From the NCBI RefSeq assembly GCF_014235875.1, contig NZ_JACJUK010000004.1, positions 310,001-374,000 of the forward strand: 64,000 nucleotides of DNA. Reading direction: 5' to 3'. Source of the stretch: Croceivirga lutea (GTDB lineage Bacteria > Bacteroidota > Bacteroidia > Flavobacteriales > Flavobacteriaceae). Each line of letters starts with the position of its first letter. Within the stretch, counting starts at the first letter, position 1. Below, in pieces: positions 34,211 to 56,217 of the stretch. The notes under the pieces are model-generated. The model was not told the DNA's origin. It made no database searches and saw only the letters and a program-made list of their open reading frames with translations. The position numbers and the translations under genes were made by a program.

Positions 34211-34285
34211 CGGGATGTGGCGCAGTCCGGTTAGCGTACACGGCTGGGGGCCGTGTGGTCGCAGGTTCAAATCCTGTCATCCCGA
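34211..34285 (+). tRNA. tRNA-Pro (anticodon GGG)
   Basis: Cloverleaf by eye: acceptor CGGGATG (34211-34217) pairs with CATCCCG (34278-34284), discriminator A at 34285. The anticodon stem CACGG/CCGTG encloses loop CTGGGGG with anticodon GGG at 34246-34248. The T-arm is GCAGG-TTCAAAT-CCTGT. CCA is not encoded. The 3' end adjoins an integrase relic, so it was probably the attachment site. Confidence 0.96.
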
Positions 34286-34310
34286 CAAATTATAGTATCA
34301 ATCTATAGCA

Positions 34311-34536: not shown

Positions 34537-35685
34537 GTGAAGACATCTTCAACATTCAGTATTCTCTTCTGGGTAGATTTTTCCAGAGTCAAAAACAATC
34601 AGGCCTCACTTTATGCTAGAATTACCGTAAATGGTAAACGGGCAGTCATTAGTTTAAAACGGAAAATTTTAATATCGGGCTGGGATGTGCATAAAAACCG
34701 AGCTAAAGGGACTAGCCAAAAATCGAGAATACTTAACAGCTATTTGGACGAGACCTATAATCACTTATTTCAGTGCTACCGAGATTTAAAGACTGATAAT
34801 AAGCTAATTACCGCACAGGCAGTTAAGGCAAGATTCCTTCGGGTAGATGATGCCCATCGTTCGGTTACGGATATTATTGCTTACCATAACGAGGACATGA
34901 GGGGCAAGTTAAAATGGGGAACCCAAAAAAATTATTTCACCACACAAAAATATGTTTCCAAATTCCTACTAAAAACTTATAAGTCCTCGGATATGTAATT
35001 GAGTGAACTCGACTATGACTTTATCATAAAATTTGAAAAATTTCTAAGGTCTTACGTACCTGAAGACCATCAACAGAGAATGGGTAACAATACTGTGATG
35101 AAACATATAGCACATTTCAGAAAATTAATCAACCTTTCTCTAAAATTGGAATGGATACATCGTGATCCCTTTATCAACTTCGAATCAAAATATATTAAAA
35201 CGGAAAGAGGCTTTTTAAGACTTGACGAACTTCAAGCAATAGAAGAAAAGTCCTTTGCCACAACTAGACTTCAGCTGGTAAAGGATTTGTTTGTTTTTAG
35301 TTGCTATACGAGTTTGAGTTATATCGATGTAATTAACCTGACCGGAGAAAACCTATGTATTGGAATAGATGGCGAACTTTGGATATATTATCGTCGAGAA
35401 AAGACAACTAAGCCTATTCGAGTTCCATTATTACCAAAAGCACTTGAAATTGTTGAAAAATATAAGAGCAATAAAAAATCTATTTCACAAGACACCATAT
35501 TCCCTAAAATCACTAACCAAAAGCTAAATTCCTATTTAAAGGAAATAGCAGATGTATGTGGTATTCAAAAGAACCTCACATTTCATATCGCTAGACATAC
35601 TTTTGCAACAACGGTAACGCTGAGTAATGGTATGCCCATTGAGACAGTTTCAAAATTATTAGGTCATTCTAGAATAGCGACAACT
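34537..35685 (+). pseudogene. Tyrosine recombinase/integrase, internal stop and lost C-terminus
   Basis: One frame from GTG 34537 reads as a Bacteroidota tyrosine integrase: an Arm-DNA-binding domain (ILFWVDFSRVKN ... GKRAVISLKRKI), a SAM-like core domain, and a catalytic domain with HIARHTFATTV and LLGHSRIATT. Two lesions are seen. A TAA at 34996-34998 splits the frame exactly where related integrases have a Tyr codon (SDM-stop-LSELDY). After codon ATT-type IATT at 35685 the frame runs into the reverse strand of ssb, so the catalytic tyrosine region is gone. The box-I arginine is Ser (TSLSYIDV), which is common in this subfamily. It is the relic of an element integrated at tRNA-Pro. Confidence 0.92.
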
Positions 35686-35915
35686 CCGATTTCTTTGCCT
35701 TTTCCGGCATATTTCTCTATAATTTCAGCCGTCTTGCCCCAAGCTACGATGGTGTGCCAGTTGGTTTCCGTTTGTTTCTCCCCCTTTGAGTCTTTGTAAT
35801 ACTCATTGGTGGCTAGTGAAAAACGGGCTACTTTTTTGCCGCTTTCCAAGTTTGTAATGGTTGGTTCCTGTCCAACATTTCCGATTAACTGTACATGATT
35901 TTTGATACTACTCAT
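35685..35915 (-). pseudogene. ssb: Single-stranded DNA-binding protein, 3'-truncated
   Basis: The first about 77 residues are a clear OB-fold SSB: SIKNHVQLIGNVGQEPTI, KVARFSLATNEYY and NWHTIVAWGKTAEI, breaking off after KGKEIG. The remaining frame to 35664 (VVAILE) is reverse-strand integrase sequence, not SSB. Roughly the last quarter of the OB fold and the whole acidic tail are missing. Accessory ssb genes are typical cargo of flavobacterial integrative elements. A fragment could still be translated, but it would lack one OB strand and the tail. Confidence 0.9.
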
Positions 35916-40911: not shown

Positions 40912-41823
40912 CTAGTTCAAACTCCGAAATTCACTAGGCGAATGTCCTACCCTTTGTTTAAAGAGCCTTGTGAAATGTTGTGGATATTTAAACCCTAATT
41001 CATATGCTATCTCACTTAAAGATTTTGATGGATCAAATACGCGTTCCTTAGCAACTTCTATCAGCTTGTTCTGGATGTACTCTTGGGCAGATTTTCCCGT
41101 TTCCTTTTTCACCAAATCTCCAAAATAGTTGGGCGAAAGGTGCATTTTTTCTGCAAAGTAACCCACAGTTGGAGTGCCATTCTTTTGCGGTTTATCGGAT
41201 GAAAAGTACTGGCTCAACAAAACATCGAATCTCTCCAAAGAACTTATATTTTCTACCTCTCGTGTAATGAATTGTCTATCATAAAAACCAGTGCAATAAT
41301 CCAAAAAGAGTTCAATGTTGGCTACGATCAACTTTTTACTGTGCTTGTCCAAGTTTTGTTCCAACTCAAACTGTATTTTTTCGATCAAACTTAGAATCAC
41401 TTTTCGTTCTTTATTGGAAAGATGGAGTGCTTCGTTGCTTGAATAGGAGAAAAAACTATAGCTATGTAATTTTTTTCCCAATTCCGTACCTATCAATAAA
41501 TCAGGGTGGAATAGTATTGCATACCCCTTGGGCACATAATCAGGGTCAAAACCGCTTAATTCAATGGTTTGACCGGGAGCCATAAAGACAAGGGTTCCCT
41601 CATCATAATCGTATGGCTTCCCTCCGTAATACATTTTGCATCCCTTGGCATCCTTCAAGAAAACAGCATAGCAATTATAATGAAAGGCATCATAATCTTT
41701 GTTTTCGTAGCCTTCTTTGTTTACGTTCTCAAAATCAACAATACCCACCAAAGGGTGCAACACCTCTTGTTTTCTCAAATTAAGATAATCTCCAACGGTA
41801 TTTATGTGCAATACATTTTTCAT
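40912..41823 (-). CDS. AraC family transcriptional regulator
   Basis: A 303-residue regulator. The N-terminal cupin-like sensor (about 20-150; MYYGGKPYDYDEGTLVFMAPGQ) is followed by the double helix-turn-helix (about 195-300; HLSPNYFGDLVKKETGKSAQEYIQ and LSEIAYELGFKYPQHFTRLFKQRVGHSPSEFR). No membrane segment is seen. It diverges from the exported-enzyme cluster and has the direct-repeat operator at 41889-41926 in its upstream region, so it is the likely activator of that cluster. A relic of a close paralogue lies at 47762-47932 beside the second operator. Confidence 0.94.
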   Translation of the reverse strand: MKNVLHINTVGDYLNLRKQEVLHPLVGIVDFENVNKEGYENKDYDAFHYNCYAVFLKDAKGCKMYYGGKPYDYDEGTLVFMAPGQTIELSGFDPDYVPKGYAILFHPDLLIGTELGKKLHSYSFFSYSSNEALHLSNKERKVILSLIEKIQFELEQNLDKHSKKLIVANIELFLDYCTGFYDRQFITREVENISSLERFDVLLSQYFSSDKPQKNGTPTVGYFAEKMHLSPNYFGDLVKKETGKSAQEYIQNKLIEVAKERVFDPSKSLSEIAYELGFKYPQHFTRLFKQRVGHSPSEFRSLN

Positions 41824-41888: not shown

Positions 41889-41955
41889 TCTGTAATAGTG
41901 GTAGGTATAACCGTAATTTGGGTAAGTTCAAGCATGTGGACAACCTATACTTTTG
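41889..41955 (+). promoter_or_regulatory. Direct-repeat operator and -7 box, site I
   Basis: Two half-sites, GTAATAGTGGTAGG (from 41892) and GTAATTTGGGTAAG (from 41913), are spaced exactly 21 bp. The -7 box TACTTTTG (41948-41955) starts 35 bp after the second half-site. Site II (48115-48178) has the same three parts with identical spacing. 21-bp direct repeats next to the -33 region fit AraC-type class II activation. Confidence 0.75.
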
Positions 41956-41997: not shown

Positions 41998-42801
41998 ATG
42001 AACTTTATGAAAAAACAGTTTCACCATTTACAAATGATTACTCTTTATGTGTTTCGTATGTTACCTGTGTTGGTATGGGGGCAATTGGAATATAAACCGT
42101 TTCTTGACAATTTTAGAGGTACGGCAAGTGTTACCCATAATGGTATTTCATTGGTACCCTCCTTCTCTTTGGGCGAACCCGCGGCCATTTTTGATGTAAA
42201 AATGACCAAGGGAAAATTCAGTTTTGAACCCGATATGCGATTTGCATTGGAAGGTAAACCATGGTCCTTTTTATTTTGGTTTCGATACAAGGCAATTCAA
42301 AAAAAACGTTTTACGTTGCGGATCGGGGCGCATCCTGCATTGAATTTTAGAACGGTCAATGTCATTCGTAATGGGGCCAACGAGGAATTGATAGAATCTC
42401 GACGCTTTTTGGCATCCGAAATTGTACCCAATTATAAAATTTCTGATAAAGTAAGTGTAGGAATGTACTACCTTACAGCAAGAGGCTTTGATGAAGGACT
42501 TAGAAGTTCAGATTTTTTAACAGTTAACGCATCTTTCACAAATTTGTCCATATCAGAAAAGTTATATTTCAATGTATCTCCCCAGGCCTATTACTTGCGT
42601 CTTGACGACAAAACGGGGTATTACGTTGTTGCTTTCATAACATTGGCAAAAAAGGATTTTCCACTTTCAATTTCATCGATTTTGAACAAAGCTATAGACA
42701 CGCAAATAGTTCCAGAGGATGATTTTATTTGGAACATATCCTTGAACTATAGTTTTGGCGGAAATAAAAAAGTCCCTAAAAAGAGCGTCCAGAAAATTTA
42801 G
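41998..42801 (+). CDS. Outer-membrane beta-barrel-like hypothetical protein
   Basis: The frame is open from TTG 41953, but that codon lies inside the predicted -7 box, so I place the start at ATG 41998 (42007 is possible). About 267 residues: a signal peptide (hydrophobic ITLYVFRMLPVLVWG, cleavage before QLEYKP), then alternating hydrophobic/polar strands with aromatic ends (FSFEPDMRFALEGKPWSFLF, KVSVGMYYLTARGF) and a final strand FIWNISLNYSFGG. This suggests a 10-12-strand outer-membrane barrel, perhaps a channel for the cluster's substrate. I do not recognise a family. Confidence 0.65.
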   Translation: MNFMKKQFHHLQMITLYVFRMLPVLVWGQLEYKPFLDNFRGTASVTHNGISLVPSFSLGEPAAIFDVKMTKGKFSFEPDMRFALEGKPWSFLFWFRYKAIQKKRFTLRIGAHPALNFRTVNVIRNGANEELIESRRFLASEIVPNYKISDKVSVGMYYLTARGFDEGLRSSDFLTVNASFTNLSISEKLYFNVSPQAYYLRLDDKTGYYVVAFITLAKKDFPLSISSILNKAIDTQIVPEDDFIWNISLNYSFGGNKKVPKKSVQKI

Positions 42802-42841: not shown

Positions 42842-43828
<987 letters not shown>

Positions 43829-43862: not shown

Positions 43863-44600
43863 ATGAAACAGCTTATAACAATTGGTATTGCCATAGTGAT
43901 TACTGCGTTTCTTGGCGTCACAAATCAAGTGAATGCCCAATCCAAGGATAATACAACCGTGAATTTGGATGCGAAGCAACAATCCATAATTGCCATTGCC
44001 TCACTCACCGCAAAAGGCAACCTGCAAACTTTGGAATCCGCTTTAACGGAAGGTCTGGATGCAGGATTGACCGTAAGAGAAATCAAGGAAGTTATGGTGC
44101 ATCTATATGCCTATTGTGGATTTCCAAGGAGCTTACGTGGTTTACGGACATTTATCAAAGTTTTGGACGAACGTAAGGCCGAAGGAGTTGACGATCAGCT
44201 AGGAGCGGAAGCTACTCCAATAGAAGATAACCGTACAAAATATGAACGGGGAAAAATTAATTTGGAAACCTTGGTACAGGCCAAGTTGGACGGTCCTCCA
44301 GCGGATTATGCCCAATTCGCCCCTATCATCGAAGTTTTTTTGAAGGAGCATCTATTTGCGGATATTTTTGATCGGGACATTTTGGATTATCAGCAAAGGG
44401 AACTGGTCACGGTTTCCGTTTTGGCAACGATCGGCGATGTGGAACCCATGTTGCGTTCGCACATGAACATCTGTTTAATACAGGGTATCACGCCAACTCA
44501 ATTACAGGAATTACTCGATGTAGTGGGGAAAAATATAGATCATGAAAAAATCGATTCGGCCAAAAAAGTATTGAACGAATTATTGGAATCTAAAAAGTAG
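43863..44600 (+). CDS. Exported carboxymuconolactone decarboxylase-like protein
   Basis: A 245-residue protein with a Sec signal peptide (cleavage near NAQS, residue 29) and two CMD-type helical repeats: about 45-115 (TVREIKEVMVHLYAYCGFP) and 150-240 (QRELVTVSVLATIGDVEPM ... HMNICLIQG). The CxxC of peroxidase-type AhpD proteins is absent, favouring a decarboxylase/lactone-related fold. CMD proteins are normally cytoplasmic, so the export signal is notable. The next gene, a Cys-nucleophile hydrolase, follows after 7 bases. Confidence 0.88.
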   Translation: MKQLITIGIAIVITAFLGVTNQVNAQSKDNTTVNLDAKQQSIIAIASLTAKGNLQTLESALTEGLDAGLTVREIKEVMVHLYAYCGFPRSLRGLRTFIKVLDERKAEGVDDQLGAEATPIEDNRTKYERGKINLETLVQAKLDGPPADYAQFAPIIEVFLKEHLFADIFDRDILDYQQRELVTVSVLATIGDVEPMLRSHMNICLIQGITPTQLQELLDVVGKNIDHEKIDSAKKVLNELLESKK

Positions 44601-44607
44601 TAAGGAA

Positions 44608-45666
44608 ATGAAATATATAGGATTATTCATTTTAATGAGTCTGTTATCAATACATCAGTCGATTAGGGCACAAAGCGAAAAAAACCCTTTTGGATTGGTA
44701 TATAAGGGAGCAATTACGGAGAATGTGGATAGAAAAGTCAACATACATCCTGTTACCTACAAACTGAACGGAATCGATATTGCGGCCAATGTTTATACAC
44801 CAGCCAATTATGACCGGAAAAATAAATATCCGGCAATAACAATTGCACATCCTAACGGAGGGATAAAGGAACAGACAGCAGGCCTATATGCACAGCATTT
44901 GGCAGAGGCCGGTTACATTACTATTACGGCAGATGCTGCTTATCAGGGTGCAAGTGGGGGCCAGCCGCACCATACGGACAAACCCCAATTTCGTACCGAA
45001 GATATCCGAGGAATGGCCGATTTTATTTCACAGTATCCTGGGGTCGATAGAGAACGTTTAGGTGCTTTGGGCATTTGTGGCGGCGGAGGCTATACGTTGA
45101 AAGCGGTCCAATCGGATAAACGGTTTAAAGCAGTGGCAACCCTGAGTATGTTCAATACAGGAATTGTACGAAAAAATGGGTTTTTGAGTTCGCAGATTTC
45201 GACCATTCAAAAAAGGCTAAAGCAAGCTTCAAAGGCAAGAGCACAGGAGGCTGGGGGCGGCGAAATCGTTTATTCCGGTGTAGACGGTATTACCGACGAA
45301 GAACTAGCAAAAGTTTCAACGCTTTTTTATCGTCAAGGCTATGAATATTATTTTAGGACCCACGCCCACCCCAATTCGACGTTTCTTTACACCACAAGCA
45401 GTTTAATGGATTTAATGGCTTGGAATGCTACCGACGATATTGAGCTCATAGACCAACCTTTATTAATGATTGCTGGCAGCAATGCCCAAACACTATATTT
45501 GACCTTGGATGCTTTTCCAAAGGCGACCAATGCGAAAAGCAAGGACTTGTTCCTTATCGAAGGTGCAACGCATATAGAAACCTATTGGAAGCCAGAATAT
45601 GTGAATCAAGCCGTAAATAAATTAGTGGACTTTTACCAAAACCATCTTTCAACTACAGACCTATGA
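44608..45666 (+). CDS. Exported alpha/beta hydrolase with Cys nucleophile (dienelactone-hydrolase-like)
   Basis: A 352-residue protein with a signal peptide (cleavage near IRAQ). The nucleophile elbow reads ALGICGGGGYTL, with Cys in place of the usual Ser, the arrangement of dienelactone hydrolases and YcjY-like proteins. The catalytic His is probably in EGATHIETYWKPEY. Members hydrolyse lactones or esters; here it lies directly after a carboxymuconolactone-decarboxylase-like gene, and the pairing recalls lactone steps in ring-cleavage pathways (an inference). Its stop overlaps the cupin start by 4 bases. Confidence 0.88.
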   Translation: MKYIGLFILMSLLSIHQSIRAQSEKNPFGLVYKGAITENVDRKVNIHPVTYKLNGIDIAANVYTPANYDRKNKYPAITIAHPNGGIKEQTAGLYAQHLAEAGYITITADAAYQGASGGQPHHTDKPQFRTEDIRGMADFISQYPGVDRERLGALGICGGGGYTLKAVQSDKRFKAVATLSMFNTGIVRKNGFLSSQISTIQKRLKQASKARAQEAGGGEIVYSGVDGITDEELAKVSTLFYRQGYEYYFRTHAHPNSTFLYTTSSLMDLMAWNATDDIELIDQPLLMIAGSNAQTLYLTLDAFPKATNAKSKDLFLIEGATHIETYWKPEYVNQAVNKLVDFYQNHLSTTDL

Positions 45667-46154
45667 ACAGAAAAAATCTTTTAGCGATTATATTGATGGG
45701 AACGTTTATATTTTCCTGCAAGCAGGCAGCCGAGAAAAATCAAACCGTCGATTTGAATTCCCAACAAGAATTGATTTTCCCTAAAGGGGAAAAGGTCACG
45801 AACAACAATTTCATTGGGGATGTATGGGTACATATGCAAGTGATGGCGGATAGTGTGAACCAAAATTCAGTGGGAACGGTAACCTTTGATCCCGGGGCTA
45901 GGTCCAACTGGCATTCACATCCCAACGGACAGATTATTATGTCTTTAGATGGCGAAGGCTATTATCAGGAAAAAGGTAGTGAGAAAAGAATACTACGAAA
46001 AGGCGATGTGGTCAAATGCCCTGCAAACACCCCGCATTGGCACGGTGCAAGCGCAGAAAAACCGTTCATACAAATCGCTATAACAAGTAGAGTTGACGGT
46101 CCAACGGAATGGCTACATCCTGTGACCGAAGAACAATATTTAAATGGAAATTAA
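45663..46154 (+). CDS. Cupin lipoprotein
   Basis: A 163-residue single-domain cupin with a lipoprotein signal ending FSC (Cys19). Metal-binding residues are visible: NWHSHPNGQ (His-x-His with a following Gln) and CPANTPHWHGA with the last His. Cupins of this shape occur as dioxygenases, isomerases or lyases, so the reaction is open. The N-terminal half of the cupin/NTF2 fusion at 48220 is a paralogue (compare KGDVVKCPANTPHWHGA with AGDVIKCLPNVEHWHGA). It overlaps the preceding hydrolase gene and is in the same transcript. Confidence 0.9.
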   Translation: MNRKNLLAIILMGTFIFSCKQAAEKNQTVDLNSQQELIFPKGEKVTNNNFIGDVWVHMQVMADSVNQNSVGTVTFDPGARSNWHSHPNGQIIMSLDGEGYYQEKGSEKRILRKGDVVKCPANTPHWHGASAEKPFIQIAITSRVDGPTEWLHPVTEEQYLNGN

Positions 46155-46190
46155 GAAGTACCTCTATACTTTCAAATTAATAAAATTTTA

Positions 46191-47288
46191 GTGATGAAAA
46201 ATATCAAGACAACATTGTTATTGCTTTTAATGGTTCAATTATTGGTAAATGATGCTTATGCTCAAAAGCAGCCCATTACCCTTGTAGAACAAGGCAGTTT
46301 TACCGTGGGCGGTAGCGTTAAAACCAGCCCCGGTACTTTTGACCCAATTGCCCATGGGGCATTCAACCCTTCCAATCAGGCTACCGAAGGACAAACCTTG
46401 CATGGAGACCATGCCACTGTTTTTTATCAAATTCCTGATAGTTCAAAAAAATTACCCTTGGTTTTTTGGCATGGGTATGGACAGAGCATGCGTACTTGGC
46501 AAACGACCCCAGATGGCAGGGAGGGATTTCAAACACTATTTTTAAGGCGTAATTTCCCCATATACCTTATTGACCAGCCCCGTAGGGGATTATCAGGAAG
46601 GAGCACGGAACCTACTACGATTTCGGCAGCCACGGATGATCAGTTGTGGTTTGGGATATTTAGATTGGGAACGGGAAGCACATTTTATCCAGATGTTCAG
46701 TTTTCTGATGATCCAGAAGCGCTGAACCAGTTCTTTAGGCAAATTACCCCGGATACGGGACCGTTGAACATCAACCTCAACACAGAGGCGGTTTCCACGC
46801 TGTTCGATAAGATTGGACCAGGTGTTTTGGTCACCCATTCCCATAGTGGTGGCCAAGGTTGGTTGACGGCCTTAAAAAATGGGAACATAAAAGGCATTGC
46901 ATCCTATGAACCCGGTAGTAATTTTGTCTTTCCAGAAGGGGAAGTCCCTGAGACCATCCCCTATGTGGGAGGGGCATTAAGTGCGAGAGGCGTACCCATG
47001 ACAGAATTTAAACGATTGACGGAAATTCCCATTGTTATTTATTATGGGGATTATATACCCAACGAACCTGTAGCGCATCCTGGTCAGGAACAATGGCGAG
47101 CCGCCTTGCAAATGGCAAAGCTTTGGACGGCCACAGTGAATAAGCATGGGGGTGATGCCACCTTGGTACACCTTCCAGAAAAGGGTCTTAAGGGAAATAC
47201 CCATTTTCCAATGTCTGACCTGAACAATGAAAAGGTGGCCGTATTGTTAGCGGAATGGCTAAAAGAAAAAGGGTTGGATAAAAAATGA
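46191..47288 (+). CDS. Exported alpha/beta fold hydrolase
   Basis: A 365-residue protein with a signal peptide (cleavage near AYAQK). Features of the fold: LPLVFWHGYGQSMRTW (oxyanion region), FPIYLIDQPRRGLSG, the nucleophile elbow VTHSHSGGQGW with Ser, and THFPMSDLNN near the C-terminus holding the likely His. It resembles the bacterial alpha/beta hydrolase/esterase-318 type that act on esters or lactones. It is 36 bases downstream of the cupin gene and 4 bases before the monooxygenase-like gene. Confidence 0.88.
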   Translation: MMKNIKTTLLLLLMVQLLVNDAYAQKQPITLVEQGSFTVGGSVKTSPGTFDPIAHGAFNPSNQATEGQTLHGDHATVFYQIPDSSKKLPLVFWHGYGQSMRTWQTTPDGREGFQTLFLRRNFPIYLIDQPRRGLSGRSTEPTTISAATDDQLWFGIFRLGTGSTFYPDVQFSDDPEALNQFFRQITPDTGPLNINLNTEAVSTLFDKIGPGVLVTHSHSGGQGWLTALKNGNIKGIASYEPGSNFVFPEGEVPETIPYVGGALSARGVPMTEFKRLTEIPIVIYYGDYIPNEPVAHPGQEQWRAALQMAKLWTATVNKHGGDATLVHLPEKGLKGNTHFPMSDLNNEKVAVLLAEWLKEKGLDKK

Positions 47289-47292
47289 CACT

Positions 47293-47724
47293 ATGCTGAC
47301 TAAAAAATTGGGGCTGTTGTTGGTATTACTGCATCTGTCTTTAATTGGTTTCGGGCAAAGCGATGATGCCCTAAAAGCGGATACTGATCAAGGGAAAATG
47401 ATGGTTCGCATTGCGGAACTTGAAATTGGGACGGACTATTTGGATGAATATTTAGAGATACTGAATGAGGAATCGGAAGCATCACTTATGCTGGAGCCCG
47501 GGGTAATCTGTATTTACCCCATGTTTCAAAAGGAAAATCCTACACAGATACGACTTTTGGAAATTTATGCCAATCAGGAGGCTTACGAATCGCATTTGAA
47601 AACACCTCATTTTCAAAAGTACAAAACAACCACGGCAGAAATGGTAAAGGATTTAAAACTGATCGATATGGAAGCTATTGATCCTGAATCGATGTCTTTG
47701 GTTTTTAAAAAATGCAAGTTCTAG
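47293..47724 (+). CDS. Exported antibiotic-biosynthesis-monooxygenase-like (ABM) protein
   Basis: A 143-residue protein with a signal peptide (cleavage near FGQSD) followed by one ABM ferredoxin-like domain: MVRIAELEIGTDYLDEYLEILNEE, a PGVICIYPMF strand, and LLEIYANQEAYESHLKTPHFQKYK, the usual His-containing C-terminal part. ABM proteins act as cofactor-free monooxygenases on quinols or as heme-degrading enzymes, and many are uncharacterised. Export is unusual for the family. It is the last gene of the first module; the operator of module two follows after a relic. Confidence 0.87.
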   Translation: MLTKKLGLLLVLLHLSLIGFGQSDDALKADTDQGKMMVRIAELEIGTDYLDEYLEILNEESEASLMLEPGVICIYPMFQKENPTQIRLLEIYANQEAYESHLKTPHFQKYKTTTAEMVKDLKLIDMEAIDPESMSLVFKKCKF

Positions 47725-47761
47725 TTCGAAATGGGCGAATAACTTTGGATGCTGGAAACTA

Positions 47762-47932
47762 TTAGTTCAACATCCGATACTCCTGAGGGATATACTCCAC
47801 CATTTTCTTAAAAAGTCTTTTGAAATGCTGTGGATATTAAAAACCAAGATCGCATGTAATTTTATTTAACGATTTATCAAGGTCGGATATTTTTTGTTTC
47901 GCTACATGAATCAGGTTATCCTCAATGTTTTT
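47762..47932 (-). pseudogene. Relic of a second AraC regulator
   Basis: The minus strand reads KNIEDNLIHVAKQKISDL, then DKSLNKITCDLGF, a TAA, and YPQHFKRLFKKMVEYIP, then QEYRMLN and a stop. This matches the C-terminal helix-turn-helix of the intact regulator at 40912 (SLSEIAYELGFKYPQHFTRLFK). The in-frame TAA replaces the Lys codon of GFKYPQHF. Upstream of about 47932 the frame is lost. The remaining gap to 48111 shows no gene. Confidence 0.85.
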
Positions 47933-48114
47933 CTTTCATCTAACTTCCTTCTGTTAAATCATGTTCACCATTCAGTGGGTACCCTGTACCTAAATTTAAA
48001 TTCGGAACAATAATCATCGACCCATATCTAATCTTTTGTATTGGACATAGAAGAAAACTGTTGTTCGAATTTAGTTAATGCTTTGTGAACAAATGGTTTA
48101 TACCCCTGTAATCC

Positions 48115-48178
48115 GTAATAATGGTAGGTGAATCCGTAATTGTGGTAAGCCTATCCTATGAATTATACCATAGCTTTG
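48115..48178 (+). promoter_or_regulatory. Direct-repeat operator and -7 box, site II
   Basis: Half-sites GTAATAATGGTAGG (from 48115) and GTAATTGTGGTAAG (from 48136) are 21 bp apart; -7 box TAGCTTTG (48171-48178) starts 35 bp after the second. All spacings equal those of site I. A further GTAAT lies at 48108. The following gene starts at 48220, 41 bases after the box. Confidence 0.78.
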
Positions 48179-48219
48179 GAAAAGGTAATTTATAATTTAA
48201 AACAATTAAATAAAACAAA

Positions 48220-49065
48220 ATGAGAGCATTATTGATAGGCTTGTTTATAGGTGTGCTAAGCATATCTTCCTTTGCGCAAGAAGCTATTTTTCCTATGGGG
48301 GCAAAAGCGAAAAACGTACACCATACCGGTGATATTTGGCTTACGCATGTTGTAGATGCTGATGAAACTTTTAAACATAACGTAGCACAAGCGGTTTCAG
48401 CACCTGGAGCATTTCTTAACTGGCATTTACATCCAGATGGCCAACAATTGTTGATCACTAACGGAGTAGGTTTTTATCAAGAAAGAGGAAAGGAAGTACA
48501 AGTAATGCGAGCTGGTGATGTAATCAAATGCCTTCCCAACGTAGAACATTGGCATGGTGCCACTCCTAAAAGTGCAGTAACCTATTTGGCGATAGGCGGG
48601 CCAACACCTACCGAATGGACAGACGAACTTAGTGCTGAGGATTATAACAACATACCGCTTCCTGAAATTAACAATTCAAGTCTTGAAAATGAGATCAAGG
48701 AACTTTCCAAGGCCAAATGGAAATGGATGGCCGATAAGGATGTGGACAAGTTGGCCAATTTGTTTCATGACAAATCAAGGTTTGTACACATGAGCGGCTC
48801 CTGGAAAAAGGACAGGGAATTGGAAATCATCGAGACGGGAAGCATTTGGTATAAAAATGCCGATGTACAAGATGTGGTCGTGGAAACTTTTGATGATGAT
48901 ACTGTGGTACTTTGGAACAGAATAACACTTACGGCCCATGTTCGGGGAAATGATGTAACTACTGAATTTACGGTCACCGAATTCTATAAAAAAGAAGGCG
49001 ACGATTGGAAATTATTGGACCTCACCTTTAGTAGCGTTCGTGATACCCATGAAATTGCACATTAA
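48220..49065 (+). CDS. Exported cupin / NTF2-like (DUF4440) fusion protein
   Basis: A 281-residue protein with a signal peptide (cleavage near SFAQE). Residues about 25-145 are a cupin with NWHLHPDGQQ and NVEHWHGAT. Residues about 155-275 are an NTF2/SnoaL-like domain of DUF4440 type (ELSKAKWKWMADKDVDKL ... FHDKSRFVHMSG). The two halves match two neighbours: the cupin lipoprotein at 45663 and the stand-alone NTF2-like protein at 49092. NTF2-like proteins act as cyclases, isomerases or binding proteins; the reaction is unknown. First gene of the second module, with its own operator. Confidence 0.9.
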   Translation: MRALLIGLFIGVLSISSFAQEAIFPMGAKAKNVHHTGDIWLTHVVDADETFKHNVAQAVSAPGAFLNWHLHPDGQQLLITNGVGFYQERGKEVQVMRAGDVIKCLPNVEHWHGATPKSAVTYLAIGGPTPTEWTDELSAEDYNNIPLPEINNSSLENEIKELSKAKWKWMADKDVDKLANLFHDKSRFVHMSGSWKKDRELEIIETGSIWYKNADVQDVVVETFDDDTVVLWNRITLTAHVRGNDVTTEFTVTEFYKKEGDDWKLLDLTFSSVRDTHEIAH

Positions 49066-49091
49066 TACTTCAGAACTAATAATTTATAAAA

Positions 49092-49538
49092 ATGAACAAA
49101 AAAATAATACTAAGTCTATTGGTCATGCTCATCACAGGACAAGTCGCCCTTGCCCAATCGACTGATTTAGAAAAGGAAATCAGAGAGCTGTCCACCCAAA
49201 AATGGCAATGGATGGCCGAGAAGGATGCCGATAAATTGGAAGACCTTTTTCATGACAAGGCCAAGTTCGTCCACATGGGCGGCACGTGGGGAAAGGACCG
49301 CGAAGTAGAAATCATTAGAGGTGGGTTCATCCACTATAAAAAAGCCGATGTCCATGAAGTAATGGTCGAAGTCTTGAATGATAATACCGTTATACTTTGG
49401 AACCAAATTACACTGTTGGCAGTAGTCGGCAGCAATGAAGTGACCAATCCCTTCATGGTAACAGAGGTCTATGTAAAAGAAAATAACAATTGGAAATTGG
49501 CCGATTTGACCTTTAGCAAAACAATGACAAGGGAATAA
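49092..49538 (+). CDS. Exported NTF2-like (DUF4440) protein
   Basis: A 148-residue protein with a signal peptide (cleavage near ALAQS). The single NTF2-like domain begins LEKEIRELSTQKWQWMAEKD and contains FHDKAKFVHMGGTW, closely similar to the second half of the preceding fusion gene, including the WKLADLTFSKT end. It would form a homodimer or pair with the fused domain; the function is unknown. It follows the fusion gene by 26 bases. Confidence 0.9.
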   Translation: MNKKIILSLLVMLITGQVALAQSTDLEKEIRELSTQKWQWMAEKDADKLEDLFHDKAKFVHMGGTWGKDREVEIIRGGFIHYKKADVHEVMVEVLNDNTVILWNQITLLAVVGSNEVTNPFMVTEVYVKENNNWKLADLTFSKTMTRE

Positions 49539-49568
49539 CTTGAACAACGTAATTTAATATACACAAAA

Positions 49569-51188
49569 ATGAAAAAATACATTTTAGGATTGGTGGTACT
49601 TCTTGGAGTTACTATTTCCGCGCAAGAAAGTACACCCAAAGTAAAGACCGAATTAGGAGTAATTCGAGGCGTCCAGGAAGATGGTGTTGATAGCTTTAAA
49701 GGAATACCCTTCGCTGCTCCTCCAGTTGGTGAGTTCCGTTGGAGAGCCCCTCAACCATTATCCCCTTGGGAAGGTGAATTGGATGCTACGGAGTACGGTG
49801 CAAACTGCGCACAGTCCGGATGGGGCGGTGCCCCGGGAACCATTAGTGAAGGTTCATCCGAAGATTGCCTGTACCTGAATGTGTGGAAACCCGCTGATGT
49901 AAATTCGGGTGCGAACCTGCCGGTCATGGTTTGGATTCATGGTGGAGGCTTTGTTGGAGGAAGTGGTTCCGGAGCTGGAATCGCGGGTGATGAATTTGCG
50001 AAGAAGGGAGTGGTTTTAATCACCATTAATTACCGTTTGGGGCGTTTGGGCCATTTTGCATTTCCTGCTTTAAGTGCAGAACATCCTGAAGAACACAAGG
50101 GTAGCTATGCTTATATGGATCAGATTGCGGCACTTCAGTGGGTACAAAAGAACATTGCTGCCTTTGGCGGAAATCCAGATAATGTGACAATTTTTGGTTT
50201 TTCTGCCGGAGGGGTTTCCGTACATTCTTTGATGACCATTCCAGATGCGAAGGGACTTTTCCATAAGGCCATTAGCGAATCTGGAGGCGCCCGTGACGGA
50301 GTACTTACCGGAAGACCGATTAGAGAGGAAAATGCTTCCCCTTTTTATCCCGTTTCCGCGGAGACCATCGGTATCAATTTTGCTAAAAAACATGGCATAG
50401 ATGGTACCGATGCCGATGCCTTGGCCAAGCTGCGTGCATTGCCTGTAGAAGAAATTGTGGATAGCGGTCAAGAAACGGATGGTGAAGGAGGCCCTAGAAT
50501 CTATTCAGGACCAATATTGGATGGCAAATTAGTAACGGAAACTGCCGAAAGTGCCTACAACGCTGGTAGACAAATGCAAATACCGTTGATGATCGGATCT
50601 AACAGCGCCGAAATTGGGGGTGGCTTTGTCAACAACAGTAAGACAAAAGAAGAACTGTTTTCACTTTTTGGCGATTTTAAGGAAGAAGCGAAGGCTGCCT
50701 ATGATCCTGATGGTACCAAAGATTTTGAAGAGGTGATTACCAAGTTCAATACCGATTGGGTGTGGGGAGAACCGGGACGTTTTGCCGCTAGGGCTTTTGC
50801 GGAGAAAGGGGAACCCACGTTTATTTATCATTTTGGTTTTGTACCCGAACCTATGAAAGAAAGAATGAAATACGGTGCCGGCCATGGTTCCGAAGTTGGC
50901 TATGTGTTTAATAATCTTGATGCACGTTGGGGTAATCCAGAGACAACTCCTGAAGATAAAAAAGTGGCGGAAATCATGAATGGGTACTGGGTAAATTTCG
51001 CCAAGACCGGAAACCCGAATGGAGATGGATTACCAAACTGGCCAGTCTATACTAAAAATGCAGGTGAAATTATGGATATACAGTTAGATGGTGAAGCCGT
51101 TGGAAAACCAGATCCAAGAAAAGCAAGATTGGATGTCGTTGAAAAGGGGGTTAAACTCAGAAACGAATTACAATCACGAGGAATTTAG
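49569..51188 (+). CDS. Exported carboxylesterase (type B family)
   Basis: A 539-residue alpha/beta hydrolase with a signal peptide (cleavage near ISAQES). Motifs: FKGIPFAAPPVGEFRWRAP, SEDCLYLNVWKP, the oxyanion hole IHGGGFVGG, the nucleophile elbow FGFSAGGVSV, and GAGHGSEVGYVF with the catalytic His. Catalyses hydrolysis of carboxylic esters in the periplasm. It is a distant paralogue of the gene at 38385. It sits 30 bases after the NTF2-like gene and 44 before the Tat-exported reductase, so an ester-cleaving first step of the pathway is plausible. Confidence 0.93.
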   Translation: MKKYILGLVVLLGVTISAQESTPKVKTELGVIRGVQEDGVDSFKGIPFAAPPVGEFRWRAPQPLSPWEGELDATEYGANCAQSGWGGAPGTISEGSSEDCLYLNVWKPADVNSGANLPVMVWIHGGGFVGGSGSGAGIAGDEFAKKGVVLITINYRLGRLGHFAFPALSAEHPEEHKGSYAYMDQIAALQWVQKNIAAFGGNPDNVTIFGFSAGGVSVHSLMTIPDAKGLFHKAISESGGARDGVLTGRPIREENASPFYPVSAETIGINFAKKHGIDGTDADALAKLRALPVEEIVDSGQETDGEGGPRIYSGPILDGKLVTETAESAYNAGRQMQIPLMIGSNSAEIGGGFVNNSKTKEELFSLFGDFKEEAKAAYDPDGTKDFEEVITKFNTDWVWGEPGRFAARAFAEKGEPTFIYHFGFVPEPMKERMKYGAGHGSEVGYVFNNLDARWGNPETTPEDKKVAEIMNGYWVNFAKTGNPNGDGLPNWPVYTKNAGEIMDIQLDGEAVGKPDPRKARLDVVEKGVKLRNELQSRGI

Positions 51189-51220
51189 CCCATTTATTGG
51201 GTTTTAAAATATTACGATAA

Positions 51221-52357
<1,137 letters not shown>

Positions 52358-52398
52358 AAGAATACGTCAAAAAAACTGTAGTTATCGATATTGAAAAT

Positions 52399-52782
52399 AT
52401 GGATTCGTCCCTCTCAACAAATCAAAAAACCTATATTCAAATAGCCCAAAATTTTTTGATGCAACTGAGCGGACAATTCCCCATTACAGAGGACACACAA
52501 CCCATAAAGTTGCGCAAAGCCTCAGATTTTGCGGATATTTTAAATATTCATGTAAATCACTTGAATAGGTCCGTCAAGTTGTATACTGGAAAAACGACTA
52601 CCCAAAATATAAATGAACGTTTTATTCAGGAAGCAAGGGCATTGGTCAAAAGAAATGACTGGTCAATTACTACCATAGCTACAGTCTTAGGATTTAGGGA
52701 AGTAAATCATTTTAGCACCTTTTTTAAAAAACATGTAGGACATACGCCAACAGATTTCAGAAAATTGAAAATTAAAAAATGA
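52399..52782 (+). CDS. Short AraC-type helix-turn-helix protein
   Basis: I take ATG 52399 as the start; the frame is open further upstream but only as a shadow of the reductase gene. The 127 residues contain only the C-terminal double helix-turn-helix of AraC regulators (ADILNIHVNHLNRSVKLYTG and ITTIATVLGFREVNHFSTFF, ending HVGHTPTDFRK) with a short lead and no sensor domain. It could be a true minimal regulator or an N-terminally lost one. Its end overlaps the flavodoxin start by 4 bases (ATGA), so it is translated with the operon. Confidence 0.82.
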   Translation: MDSSLSTNQKTYIQIAQNFLMQLSGQFPITEDTQPIKLRKASDFADILNIHVNHLNRSVKLYTGKTTTQNINERFIQEARALVKRNDWSITTIATVLGFREVNHFSTFFKKHVGHTPTDFRKLKIKK

Positions 52783-53381
52783 TAATATCTCGTTTACTAT
52801 TTATTATTTTCTTGGTATCCGGATGGTGTAGTGCCCAAGGGTACGAGAATAAAGCGGACAACATATTGATTGTCTATTTATCAAGAACAAACAATACTAA
52901 GGTTGTGGCCGAAATGATCCATGAAAATTTGGGCGGTGATCTGGTGGCACTGGAATTAAAAAATCCTTATCCGCAAAACTACAAGTCGATTGTGGAACAA
53001 GTGGCAGAAGAAAATCGTACCGGGTTTCTTCCGCCCCTAAAAACACAGATAAATATGGACAAGTATGATACCGTTTTTTTAGGCTTCCCCACATGGGGAA
53101 TGCAACTGCCTCCACCAATTAAAAGCTTTTTGACCCGGCACGACCTTAAGGATAAAACGGTCATTCCTTTTAACACCAATGCTGGGTACGGTATTGGCAG
53201 TACCTTTCGAACGGTGGAAAGCCTTTGCTCCGATTGCAACATTTTAGAAGGGTTTGCGGTAACCGGGGGTATTGAGAGAGATGGAATTTACTTGGCCATA
53301 AAAGGGAACCGTAAAGTAGAAGTGAAGGAATTACTTGTGGAATGGCTTGAAAAGCTTAAACCACTGACTATCAAAAACTAA
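52779..53381 (+). CDS. Exported flavodoxin-like protein
   Basis: A 200-residue flavodoxin-fold protein with a signal peptide (MIISRLLFIIFLVSGWCSAQ). The FMN phosphate loop reads YLSRTNNTKVVAEMI, a variant of the S/T-x-T-G-x-T loop; the second FMN loop is FPTWGMQLPPPIKSFL, and NTNAGYGIG is the third. Flavodoxins are normally cytoplasmic electron carriers, so a periplasmic one is odd. It could serve as a redox partner for the exported reductase or the molybdenum hydroxylase just downstream, but this is a guess from proximity. Confidence 0.87.
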   Translation: MIISRLLFIIFLVSGWCSAQGYENKADNILIVYLSRTNNTKVVAEMIHENLGGDLVALELKNPYPQNYKSIVEQVAEENRTGFLPPLKTQINMDKYDTVFLGFPTWGMQLPPPIKSFLTRHDLKDKTVIPFNTNAGYGIGSTFRTVESLCSDCNILEGFAVTGGIERDGIYLAIKGNRKVEVKELLVEWLEKLKPLTIKN

Positions 53382-53477
53382 AAACAATTAAGATTTTGAC
53401 TAAGTAGGTAAAAACTGTTTGAATTTCGTAAGCAACACCCAATATATAATCTTTATTTTTAAGTAAATTTTTTAAAA

Positions 53478-53942
53478 ATGGCAATATTCAACTTAAACAT
53501 CAACGGAGAAACGAAAGAAGTCGACGTTGACCCGGCAACACCTATGCTTTGGGTGCTAAGAGACCATATTAAATTGGTAGGTACTAAATATGGTTGCGGT
53601 ATTGCTCAATGTGGTGCCTGTACGGTGCATTTAGGTGACAATGCGGTACGTTCTTGCCAATTACCTGTTTCGGCTGTTGGGGAGCAAAAAATCACGACCA
53701 TTGAAGGACTGTCGGAACATGGTGATCACCCTGTACAAAAAGCTTGGCTGGAAATCGATGTACCCCAATGCGGATATTGCCAGGCAGGGCAGATAATGTC
53801 GGCCTCGGCCTTGTTAAAAAGGAATCCCAATCCGTCGGACGAAGAAATTGAAAGCGCTATGAACGGGAATATCTGTAGGTGTGGTACATACACGCGAATC
53901 AAAAAAGCAATAAAAACAGCCGCTAGTTCGGAAAACGTTTAA
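53478..53942 (+). CDS. (2Fe-2S) subunit of molybdenum hydroxylase (IorA-like)
   Basis: A 154-residue protein with both iron-sulphur clusters of the xanthine-oxidase family: Cys40, Cys45, Cys48 and Cys60 (plant-ferredoxin type, [11 protein letters not shown]) and Cys98, Cys101, Cys133 and Cys135 (CGYCQAG, CRCG). The size fits isoquinoline 1-oxidoreductase alpha and aldehyde dehydrogenase small subunits. It has no signal peptide; such subunits are exported by riding with the Tat-carrying large subunit, which follows after 16 bases. Confidence 0.94.
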
Positions 53943-53958
53943 TCAAAAAAATTAGGAG

Positions 53959-56217
53959 ATGACAAAGCTAAAGACGCATATGGGACGTAGGGCCTTTATC
54001 AAGAATACAAGTTTGGCAAGTGGCGGTTTGGTACTTGGCTTTAGTATTTTAAACTCCTGCAAATCTGAGCAGGCAAAAGAGATGGCGGTTAGGGAAATGC
54101 CCAAAGAATGGTTCGAGATGAATTCGTATTTGAAAATTGGGGATAACGGGGTTGTAACCATTTATACGCCCAATCCGGAATTCGGTCAGAATATCAGGAC
54201 ATCTATGCCCATGTTGGTAGCAGAAGAGTTAGATGTAGATTGGAAAAATGTACTGGTTGAACAGGCGCCCTATCATGCGGACAAATATGGATTTCAATTT
54301 ACGGGGGGCAGTAGGGGAATAAGTGCCCGATGGGAACCGCTTAGAATGGCCGGAGCAACCGCAAGGCAGATGTTGATAGCGGCGGCGGCAGAAACCTGGC
54401 AGGTACCCAAGGAAGAGGTTACCGCAGAAGCAGGAGTTTTGCAACATGCAGCCACTAAAAAATCGGCCGGTTACGGAGAAATGGCTTCAGTTGCAGCAAC
54501 ACTTACCGTACCCGAAGAAGTACAACTAAAAGAGGTAAAGGATTTTAAACTGGTCAGCCGTTCGCAAAAAAATGTAGATGCAAAAAGCATTGTAACCGGT
54601 AGGCCTTTATTTGGCATGGATATTCAAGAGGAAGGAATGTTGATCGCCATGATCGAACATCCACCAGCTTTTGGTTTGACCTTAAAATCAGTGGATGGTG
54701 AAGCGGCCAAAGCTATGCCTGGAATCAAGGATGTGGTTACGATCAAGAGTTTTAAGGACGGATATGAAAAAGGCGGTTTCGACACCAACGCTTTTCCTGA
54801 ATTGGTTGCGATAGTGGGCAACTCTACTTGGGAGGTGATGCAAGCTAAAAAGAAATTAAAAGTTGAATGGCAACCCATTACCGCCTATTCGGAAACAATC
54901 GCTGGGTTTGGTGGAAAACAAACGATTAACATACCCGCAGGACTGGAATCTACCACGACCCATAAATCAAAAATGGAAGCACTTGCTGCAAAACCGGGAA
55001 AAGTTGTCCGAAAAGATGGAAATCCAGAAGTAGCCTTCAAAAATGCAACAAAAATTTTGGAAAGAAGTTACTCGGCGCCTTTTCTTGCTCATAATAACAT
55101 GGAGCCCTTGAATGCTTTTGCCCATGTAGCAGGCGATAAGGCGAAAATTGCAGCACCAATACAGATTCCGTCTTTTATCATCCCTACAATTGCTAGTAGT
55201 CTGGGAATACCGAAAGAGAATATTGAGATGGACCTTCCAAGAATGGGCGGTGGTTTTGGCCGCAAGGCCTATGCCCACTTTGTGGTGGAAGCGGCTTTGA
55301 TTTCACAAAAAGTCAATGCACCTATCAAGTTAGTATATAGCCGTGAAGACGATATGACCAATGGTATTTATCGCCCAACGTATCACGCAACCTATCGCGC
55401 GGCTTTTGATGAAAACAATAATTTAACGGCATTACATGTGAAGGCTGGCGGAGTGCCGGAGAGTCCATTGTTCGCCAATCGTTTTCCGGCAGGGGCCATT
55501 GATAATTATATGGCAGAAGAGTGGACCATTGATTCCAACATTTCCATAGGTGCCTTTAGAGCTCCACGATCTAATTTTATGGCCGGTGCCGAACAAGCGT
55601 TCTTGGATGAAGTTGCTGAAACCATGGGCAAGGACGCCATTCAATTTCGCTTGGACCTGCTAAAACGCGCCAAGGAAAATCCTGTAGGCGAACGGAATGA
55701 TTATGATGCTGATAGGTACGCCGGAGTCCTGGAATTGGTTCGTGAAAAATCGGCTTGGAAAGAAAATGATGCAACGAAACATCGAGGAGTGTCGGCCTAT
55801 TTTTGCCATAACTCCTATGCGGCGCATGTACTGGATTTAAAGATGGAGAACGGTAAACCCGTAGTAGAAAAAGTAGTTTGTGCCATTGATTGTGGAGTGG
55901 TGGTAAATCCTGATGCAGCAACAAACATGGCCGAGGGAGCCATTACCGATGGTATTGGTAACGCCTTTTATGGGGAATTGACCTTTCAGGATGGGGTGCC
56001 ACAGAAAAACAATTTCCACCAATATCAAATGATCCGCATGAAAGAGGCACCGAAAGAAATCGACGTACATTTTGTGCAGAATAAAATTGACCCAACAGGT
56101 ATGGGTGAGCCTCCGTTTCCCCCTGTTTTCGGTGCGGTAGCCAATGCCTTATATAAAGCCACGGGGCAACGGCATTATAGTCAGCCATTTATAACAAAAA
56201 AGGAAGTAGTAGGATAA
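53959..56217 (+). CDS. Molybdopterin-binding subunit of exported hydroxylase (IorB-like)
   Basis: A 752-residue large subunit of the xanthine dehydrogenase/IorB family. A twin-arginine signal (GRRAFIKNTSLASGG) ends in a lipobox-like LNSC, so it is a Tat substrate and probably a lipoprotein. Visible motifs: PHMGGGFGRK-type RMGGGFGRKAYAHF, MEPLNAFAHV, SIGAFRAPRSNF and VVCAIDCGVVVNPD, and a C-terminal GEPPFPPVFGAVANA with the active-site Glu-type pattern of the family. It would hydroxylate an aldehyde or N-heterocycle. The usual cytochrome c partner and XdhC-type maturase are not in the window. Confidence 0.93.
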   Translation: MTKLKTHMGRRAFIKNTSLASGGLVLGFSILNSCKSEQAKEMAVREMPKEWFEMNSYLKIGDNGVVTIYTPNPEFGQNIRTSMPMLVAEELDVDWKNVLVEQAPYHADKYGFQFTGGSRGISARWEPLRMAGATARQMLIAAAAETWQVPKEEVTAEAGVLQHAATKKSAGYGEMASVAATLTVPEEVQLKEVKDFKLVSRSQKNVDAKSIVTGRPLFGMDIQEEGMLIAMIEHPPAFGLTLKSVDGEAAKAMPGIKDVVTIKSFKDGYEKGGFDTNAFPELVAIVGNSTWEVMQAKKKLKVEWQPITAYSETIAGFGGKQTINIPAGLESTTTHKSKMEALAAKPGKVVRKDGNPEVAFKNATKILERSYSAPFLAHNNMEPLNAFAHVAGDKAKIAAPIQIPSFIIPTIASSLGIPKENIEMDLPRMGGGFGRKAYAHFVVEAALISQKVNAPIKLVYSREDDMTNGIYRPTYHATYRAAFDENNNLTALHVKAGGVPESPLFANRFPAGAIDNYMAEEWTIDSNISIGAFRAPRSNFMAGAEQAFLDEVAETMGKDAIQFRLDLLKRAKENPVGERNDYDADRYAGVLELVREKSAWKENDATKHRGVSAYFCHNSYAAHVLDLKMENGKPVVEKVVCAIDCGVVVNPDAATNMAEGAITDGIGNAFYGELTFQDGVPQKNNFHQYQMIRMKEAPKEIDVHFVQNKIDPTGMGEPPFPPVFGAVANALYKATGQRHYSQPFITKKEVVG

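Follow-up and report, generated by a model that had tools for sequence, protein, structure and literature searches.

A co-regulated, mobile set of export-tagged enzymes beside an AraC-type regulator in Croceivirga lutea: a possible extracytoplasmic detoxification module

We analyzed a 64,000-nucleotide stretch of the Croceivirga lutea genome (contig NZ_JACJUK010000004.1, positions 310,001 to 374,000; hereafter the window, whose numbering is used throughout). Within it, a plus-strand gene cluster begins with omp at 42007 and ends with moco at 56217, with the regulator gene araC1 divergent on the minus strand. Judged from its sequence, the cluster is a co-regulated, export-tagged and mobile set of enzymes with intact active sites, drawn from families that usually work inside cells. 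An initial annotation of the window had described a one-strand run at 43863-56217, composed almost entirely of exported enzymes; the run was confirmed, but the cluster proved to be longer, with the divergent araC1, omp and the cytoplasmic akr1.

The araC1 gene (40912-41823, minus strand) encodes an AraC-family regulator with a modelled cupin-type ligand domain and a helix-turn-helix (HTH) domain; all other features of the cluster are on the plus strand. Operator 1 (41892-41924), a direct repeat GTAATAGTGGTA-N9-GTAATTTGGGTA with a period of 21 bp, stands at the head of the first operon. The exported product of omp (42007-42801) was predicted to be a small outer-membrane beta-barrel (predicted local distance difference test score, pLDDT, of 66), and a fold search gave weak barrel matches at best (top E 1.5e-3). 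It is followed by akr1 (42845-43828), which encodes a cytoplasmic aldo/keto reductase (AKR) without a signal; cmd (43863-44600), a tandem carboxymuconolactone-decarboxylase (CMD)-like protein with a Sec signal and no CxxC; abh1 (44608-45666), a YcjY/PA2218-type hydrolase with a Sec signal and the nucleophile Cys157; cup1 (45663-46154), a cupin lipoprotein; abh2 (46191-47288), a SulE / esterase 713-type hydrolase with Ser217-Glu240-His338; and abm (47293-47724), an ABM-domain protein, the last two with Sec signals by a permissive rule. From akr1 on, the intergenic gaps measured -4 to 96 bp, except that abm and cupD are separated by 495 bp. Operator 2 (48115-48147, GTAATAATGGTA-N9-GTAATTGTGGTA) lies within this gap, at the head of the second operon.

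The second operon begins with cupD (48220-49065), a Sec-tagged fusion of a cupin with DUF4440 (NTF2-like), and ntf2 (49092-49538), a Sec-tagged DUF4440/SnoaL-like protein with 60% identity to the C-terminal half of cupD; the region 48220-49538 is thus an apparent tandem duplication with fusion. A further cupin with a signal-like N-terminus, 34-37% identical to cupD, lies outside the island described below (L017:6626-7105; L numbers denote loci). The operon continues with cest (49569-51188), a Sec-tagged carboxylesterase; akr2 (51233-52357), an AKR with a twin-arginine translocation (Tat) signal; araC2 (about 52402-52782, the start codon being chosen and approximate), an AraC-type DNA-binding domain without a sensor domain; fld (52779-53381), a Sec-tagged flavodoxin (Flavodoxin_4); fes (53478-53942), the 2Fe-2S subunit of a molybdenum hydroxylase; and moco (53959-56217), its molybdopterin subunit, with a Tat signal, a possible lipobox at C34 and no flavin adenine dinucleotide (FAD) domain found. 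The araC2 gene overlaps fld by 4 bases, has homologues in L027 (86%) and L037 (98%), and may be a relic or a small regulator. Pfam matches to CMD, two alpha/beta hydrolases, two cupins, ABM, DUF4440/SnoaL, carboxylesterase, two AKRs, flavodoxin and the 2Fe-2S and molybdopterin hydroxylase subunits agreed with the families assigned initially, although the single match of abh2, at 26.2 bits, narrowly misses its cut-off of 26.3.

Signals were called with our own rule-based predictors, strict and permissive, and not with SignalP. Among the 13 genes from cmd to moco, a Sec, lipoprotein or Tat signal was found in 11 by the permissive rule and in 9 by the strict rule, which missed abh2 and abm. The same rules detected signals in 91 (strict) and 99 (permissive) of 301 background genes, covering 400 kb of this genome (30-33%), and the highest count in 67 background runs of 13 genes was 8. 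The enrichment corresponded to a binomial P of 0.004 (strict) or 0.0002 (permissive). The claim that nearly all of these enzymes are exported was therefore upheld, signals holding in most members under our rules, except that fes itself carries none and that a short AraC-type open reading frame (ORF), araC2, also without a signal, lies inside the set. The fes product presumably travels with its Tat-tagged partner moco. Upstream of cmd, akr1 also lacks a signal. None of the four CMD and none of the four AKR paralogues elsewhere in the genome carried a signal, and genes for TatC and XdhC were present.

We searched GTDB genomes with cmd, which gave at least 543 relatives, and kept 80 loci by similarity to cmd; their titles are nearly all Bacteroidota, with one KSB1, and the resulting frequencies are those of this selection and not of all genomes. 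Linkage was counted in the 57 loci that extend at least 8 kb to both sides of cmd; the other 23 fall short of this on one side. In these 57 loci, we found abh2 in 52, cup1 in 51, araC1 in 48 (46 on the opposite strand), abh1 in 43, ntf2 in 42, akr1 in 35, cest in 27, fld in 25, cupD in 21 and akr2 in 17, with fes and moco (12 each), abm (8) and omp (6) being the rarest. As controls, the four genes flanking the cluster in the window occurred in 0, 1, 1 and 2 loci. These counts answered the concern that the genes might prove unlinked in relatives. The module genes were almost always on one strand, yet in 47 different orders, and only the query cmd was present in all 57 loci, every other family being absent from some.

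The export signals were also compared among homologues in the 80 loci. A homologue was counted if it spanned 60% or more of the query, cupD being exempt from this limit, with the start codon picked to favour a signal, and the bias of this choice was gauged with araC1, fes and akr1, which are expected inside. Signals were found for cmd in 78/80, abh1 in 55/57 (Sec), cup1 in 66/71, abh2 in 60/63, abm in 11/11, cupD in 29/30, ntf2 in 53/53, cest in 36/37, akr2 in 21/21 (Tat; this set includes two homologues at just 24-25% identity), fld in 33/33 (Sec 10, lipoprotein 23) and moco in 13/13 (Tat), a rate of 93-100% per exported family. The same procedure gave 1/63 for araC1, 0/18 for fes and 7/49 for akr1; six of the seven akr1 positives, starting at the mature N-terminus, are probably spurious, and that of L079 may be a true signal. 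The flavodoxin is a Sec and not a Tat protein in the window and carries Tat signals in its proteobacterial relatives, namely all eight loci tested (L127, L129, L130, L135, L136, L139, L141 and L142). Similarly, abh1 has a Sec signal in the enterobacterial loci L127, L130, L136 and L139 and in Sinorhizobium L129, and a Tat signal in Achromobacter L135 and Agrobacterium L137. When any Met was accepted as a start, a zinc alcohol dehydrogenase (ADH) showed a Sec signal in L098, a Tat signal in L025 and no signal in L067 and L089; a count for akr5 (14/33) was discarded because any Met had been allowed as a start. Taken together, the signal type (Sec, lipoprotein or Tat) appears to have been exchanged while the destination was kept.

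The region upstream of omp and the 495-bp gap share the direct repeat with the 21-bp period, and its presence before the divergent araC1 is newly found here. In the regions upstream of araC1, the best repeat of this period scored higher than all 40 shuffles in 61 of 63 cases; the repeat lies on the same strand, 59-76 bases from the araC1 start, for regulators down to 50% identity. The first position weight matrix (PWM) was built from 10 sites, and the training sites came from, or recur identically in, 12 of the 63 regions, L046 sharing half-sites as well; without the regions equal to training sites, 49 of 51 still scored above all 40 mononucleotide shuffles, L058 and L063 being the two that failed. 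A wider PWM found 100 sites in 66 of the 80 loci, a count that is partly circular because this PWM includes half-sites from the araC1 upstream regions. The background counts are not affected by this circularity: there were no sites in 400 kb of the own genome and none in 1.46 Mb of shuffled loci (one mononucleotide shuffle). No site elsewhere in the genome fits as well as the two in the cluster, which have 0-1 mismatch; a third hit has 3 mismatches. The regulon therefore appears to be the cluster alone. Scans for sigma-70 promoters and terminators gave hits no more frequent than in shuffles, and the strict Bacteroidota -33/-7 promoter was not found in five short stretches scanned, which contained three relaxed hits.

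The genes 3' of the 100 sites were mostly module members: akr1 and abh2 (16 each), fld (13), cupD (9), cmd (7), ntf2 (3), omp and abh1 (2 each), and cup1, abm and fes (1 each). The remaining 29 sites precede genes outside the window set, which by eye comprised 18 DkgA-like AKRs, 6 DUF5916-type genes (two of the six tested with Pfam), one cytochrome-like gene and 4 unclear cases. The DkgA-like AKR of L053, the one compared, is 44% identical to the E. coli methylglyoxal reductase DkgA. The cytochrome-like gene, in Pedobacter metabolipauper (L095:14066-15009), is under the Pfam cut-off and lies near 2Fe-2S and molybdenum genes; it is a possible alternative electron acceptor. A family search at two mismatches turned up 17 sites, spread over 14 of 299 genomes, against 11 for a reversed control pattern and was mostly noise; of three places inspected, two (G207 and G277) had module genes and one (G136) had none.

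Operators in the form of direct repeats of about 21 bp are expected of AraC-family regulators, and AraC1 combines such an operator with an HTH_18 domain and, in the model, a ligand domain. The model showed a RhaR/AraC-like cupin domain (pLDDT 85), and AraC1 is therefore probably ligand-responsive. Ranked by E-value, the fold-search hits were led by full-length Rns, CsvR and ToxT, with template modelling (TM) scores of about 0.3, and the ligand-domain assignment rests on RhaR (TM 0.65-0.69 of target) together with AraC. A cysteine redox sensor was considered as well: the only common cysteine, C177 (61/64), sits in a helix, and ligand binding was preferred for this reason.

The cluster is part of a genomic island. 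A tRNA-Pro(GGG) gene (34211-34286, plus strand) supplies attL with its last 24 bases (34263-34286), and a perfect copy, attR, lies 34.3 kb away and past the window end, at 68526-68549 on the window scale (C14:378526-378549, in contig numbering). Adjacent to the tRNA gene is an apparently split tyrosine integrase (34537-35799, plus strand), with the arm domain in one ORF (34537-34998) and the SAM and catalytic domains in a second (34999-35799). The island also contains a SusC/SusD pair, GH32, a ROK kinase and a hybrid sensor, a locus that we take to serve fructan use. Base composition in 2-kb steps was 0.39-0.46 for the cluster and 0.33-0.45 for its surroundings, giving no clean boundary. Compared with the cluster of Arenibacter latericius (L037), identities of the genes present there ran from 59% (cup1) to 99% (akr2), and the best match of akr1 there (54%) is another AKR; this mosaic is consistent with recombination. 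Directly upstream of the tRNA gene, at 25857-34157, is an exported repeat protein of 2766 aa whose C-terminus resembles an anchor of the gliding or type IX secretion system type.

The island, with its att repeats and split integrase, raises the question of whether the signals are merely decorative, the exported proteins having been co-inherited by chance and not forming a functional set. The patchy distribution would suit such an origin, since cmd was found in 1 of 60 relatives (the own genome only) and abh1 in 3 of 148 phylum genomes, the own included, at E <= 1e-60. Nevertheless, linkage was kept despite the reshuffling, the operator and the catalytic residues are conserved, and signals were exchanged; we regard chance assembly as very improbable.

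A search in other Bacteroidota had been proposed initially; we found that the gene set is not confined to them. The same families occur in Proteobacteria, on plasmids of E. coli, Klebsiella, Pantoea, Sinorhizobium, Agrobacterium and Achromobacter, with LysR or two-component regulators. In particular, L127, L129 and L130 matched the window with identities of 66-67% for abh1, 53-54% for abh2 (two loci), 63% for akr1 and 37-40% for fld. A 10.7-kb E. coli plasmid module had a match anywhere in 2172 of 5426 E. coli genomes, but just 3 of them matched 80% or more of its length. In the one E. coli chromosome examined, a decayed module remnant lies near hipAB (L140:5138-11444). Neighbours of the E. 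coli and Klebsiella modules encode major facilitator superfamily (MFS) or resistance-nodulation-division (RND) efflux, nitroreductase and BhsA/DUF1471 proteins. An ApbE-type FAD:protein FMN transferase without a signal by rule lies inside the Agrobacterium plasmid module (L137:3372-4298), a hint at flavin handling. L131 and L132 were unannotated and left out. No published description of the module, no pathway of the same composition and no function for the set carried by Enterobacteriaceae conjugative plasmids were found in the literature searched, which covered few subscription journals; this agrees with the initial statement that no such pathway is described.

The active sites were generally retained. 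As anticipated for one of the esterase- or lactone-type hydrolases, abh1 has a cysteine nucleophile: C157 was kept in 58/58 sequences (window counted), and the Cys of the GIC motif aligns with a Cys in both the YcjY and PA2218 structures. In akr2, D100, Y105, K130 and H172 are kept, which we take to be the AKR catalytic tetrad, and E717 of moco, presumably the catalytic residue, is kept in at least 95% of 14 sequences (window counted). The residues S217, E240 and H338 of abh2 align with Ser209, Glu232 and His333 of SulE, and no GxSxG is present. According to its description (PMC10356948), SulE is a sulfonylurea de-esterifying enzyme with a putative signal peptide. SulE / esterase 713 thus resembles abh2 in its Ser-Glu-His triad without GxSxG and in its signal peptide; in contrast, SulE is known as a single enzyme for sulfonylurea de-esterification. 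Candidate identities that fell under model cut-offs were the UilS lactonase (NF047920; 66.3 vs 400 bits) and the cupin (R)-mandelonitrile lyase, to which cup1 is related (NF049940; 124.4 and 106.2 vs 140 bits). A role in anti-phage defence was rejected as well, the best PADLOC hits for 6 proteins scanned (E 0.004 and 0.006) being judged chance.

The fes and moco genes have the layout of an FAD-less molybdenum aldehyde oxidoreductase, with two 2Fe-2S clusters (8 Cys kept in 19/19 fes sequences, window counted), a molybdenum subunit and no FAD-binding family in the genes scanned. Residues 6-743 of moco align end to end with 14-756 of the aldehyde dehydrogenase large subunit 8gy3_C; the cluster differs from that enzyme in having no cytochrome gene between araC1 and moco. 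For the FAD-less aldehyde oxidoreductase of Desulfovibrio gigas, a flavodoxin is described as a putative partner, linked to it in vitro (PMC10223205). The cluster is similar in its FAD-less molybdenum/2Fe-2S hydroxylase and its flavodoxin as a candidate electron partner, but its version has two subunits, is Tat-tagged, comes with a Sec-tagged flavodoxin and is coupled to it only putatively. This partnership makes the export-tagged flavodoxin beside the exported hydroxylase a testable pair.

The CMD protein bears on an envelope defence against oxidative or chlorine stress, in which it would act as an AhpD-like peroxidase while the flavodoxin and AKR repair oxidised products. Genes for CMD or oxidoreductases are linked to ECF41 sigma factors, and the source (PMC3426412) suggests an oxidative-stress role for those CMDs and gives CxxC as their mark. 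As with these ECF41-linked COE genes, CMD and oxidoreductase genes here recur beside a dedicated regulator, but this is an AraC regulator instead of a sigma factor. Moreover, cmd has just two cysteines, C85 (65/81) and C204 (72/81), and lacks that CxxC, and an AhpD-type peroxidase was rejected on this ground. Some enterobacterial copies do have a two-component system of the CusS/HprS kind, HprS being a HOCl sensor; the one kinase compared (L127) is nearer CusS (39%) than HprS (31%). Since AraC1 has no match to RclR either, an RclR/HprS-type chlorine response was rejected, and a Pfam scan of the cluster detected neither a peroxidase nor a Met-sulfoxide reductase family. Stress defence is therefore unlikely in our view.

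It is also possible, with a minor share of the probability, that the cluster is a periplasmic peripheral catabolic pathway in which esters, lactones or aromatic compounds from plants or algae undergo de-esterification and oxidation outside, followed by uptake of the acids as a carbon source. The three hydrolases, the CMD, the molybdenum hydroxylase and the porin-like outer-membrane protein at the operon head (weak matches) would suit it, as would the island shared with the GH32/SusCD locus, plasmid carriers that include Sinorhizobium, Rhizobium and Pantoea (a biased collection), and the Achromobacter copy near transporter, thiolase and CoA-ligase genes. However, cmd reached 59.5 bits against the cut-off of 155.7 of the PcaC model TIGR02425, and the intradiol dioxygenase family PF00775 had no match in the genome (the control matched in 4/14), so that the beta-ketoadipate pathway was rejected. 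Further, a Pfam scan of the cluster genes found no transporter or CoA-ligase gene from araC1 to moco, gene set and order are not constant among the 57 loci, and in E. coli and Klebsiella the related copies have efflux and stress genes as neighbours. The initial suggestion of degradation or detoxification of an esterified cyclic or aromatic compound stands in its second half: detoxification fits better, and a dedicated degradation pathway for a single aromatic compound is not supported by these results.

On balance, the cluster may be an AraC-type carbonyl/electrophile response moved to the envelope. We give an even chance to the view that it is a mobile module under AraC1 control that detoxifies reactive compounds of the carbonyl and ester/lactone classes outside the cytoplasm, and not a linear catabolic pathway; both the substrates (carbonyl/ester compounds) and the inducer are what we infer. 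Because membership is optional and shuffled, parallel detoxification of a compound class fits better than sequential steps. Besides the conserved signals, linkage and operator, we counted as support the DkgA-like AKRs under the operator in relatives, the moco-8gy3_C alignment, the likeness of abh2 to SulE, the efflux, nitroreductase and BhsA neighbours, and TatC and XdhC. In such a module, the cupin domain of AraC1 would bind a small molecule and both operons would be switched on. The abh2, abh1 and cest products would hydrolyse the ester or lactone bonds of some reactive or toxic compound. The aldehydes or ketones thereby exposed would have two fates: reduction by the AKR, which Tat would export already folded and charged with NADP(H), or oxidation to acids by the FAD-less molybdenum hydroxylase, likewise Tat-borne. 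Its electrons may pass to the exported flavodoxin, as proposed for the D. gigas enzyme, or to a cytochrome. The CMD, cupin, ABM and NTF2-like proteins might act on reactive intermediates, and the cytoplasmic akr1 product could catch compound leaking in.

The nearest functional parallel is the E. coli YqhC-YqhD/DkgA system (PMC5297802). This parallel is drawn from the layout, a divergent AraC-family regulator by carbonyl reductases, and from the DkgA-like AKRs under the operator in relatives, and not from regulator homology. The cluster differs in its mostly exported enzymes and its additional hydrolases, CMD, cupin, flavodoxin and molybdenum enzyme, and the window has no DkgA-like AKR (akr1 is 26% identical). 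To our knowledge, YqhD and DkgA have no export signal. YqhC orthology of AraC1 was rejected, the identity being 25% over 80 aa of the HTH only.

Several observations weigh against extracytoplasmic detoxification. We know of no NAD(P)H available outside the cytoplasm, and a Tat-exported AKR may therefore not turn over; cofactor pre-loading accounts even less readily for the Sec-type zinc ADH of L098. The resemblance of AraC1 to the aldehyde regulator YqhC is confined to the HTH. The pairing of fld with moco is limited to part of the loci, which leaves their coupling conjectural. Nor do all relatives show export: in L128, a relative on an IncHI2 plasmid, signals are missing from cmd, cupin and ADH alike, and, at annotated starts, no signal was called by rule in the CMD of L129, L135 and L137, abh2 of L129, abh1 of L141, or the cupin and molybdenum subunit of Hymenobacter L138. 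Finally, the gene content, with GH32/SusCD on the island and the Achromobacter surroundings, could fit partial catabolism.

A more elaborate proposal, which we think rather unlikely, is a self-contained periplasmic redox cascade with pre-loaded cofactors. Tat would deliver the NADP(H)-charged AKR and the molybdenum hydroxylase, and the flavodoxin would shuttle electrons between them, so that carbonyls would be dismutated, one reduced and one oxidised, without an NADPH supply; the module would move between phyla with its location kept and its signal type and regulator exchanged.

A mobile, co-regulated set drawn from usually cytoplasmic families thus carries export signals in two phyla, which raises the question of how enzymes that depend on NAD(P)H and FMN function in a compartment believed to be devoid of both. 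The operator makes regulon members near araC1 predictable from sequence, and it could possibly provide a reporter for the inducer.

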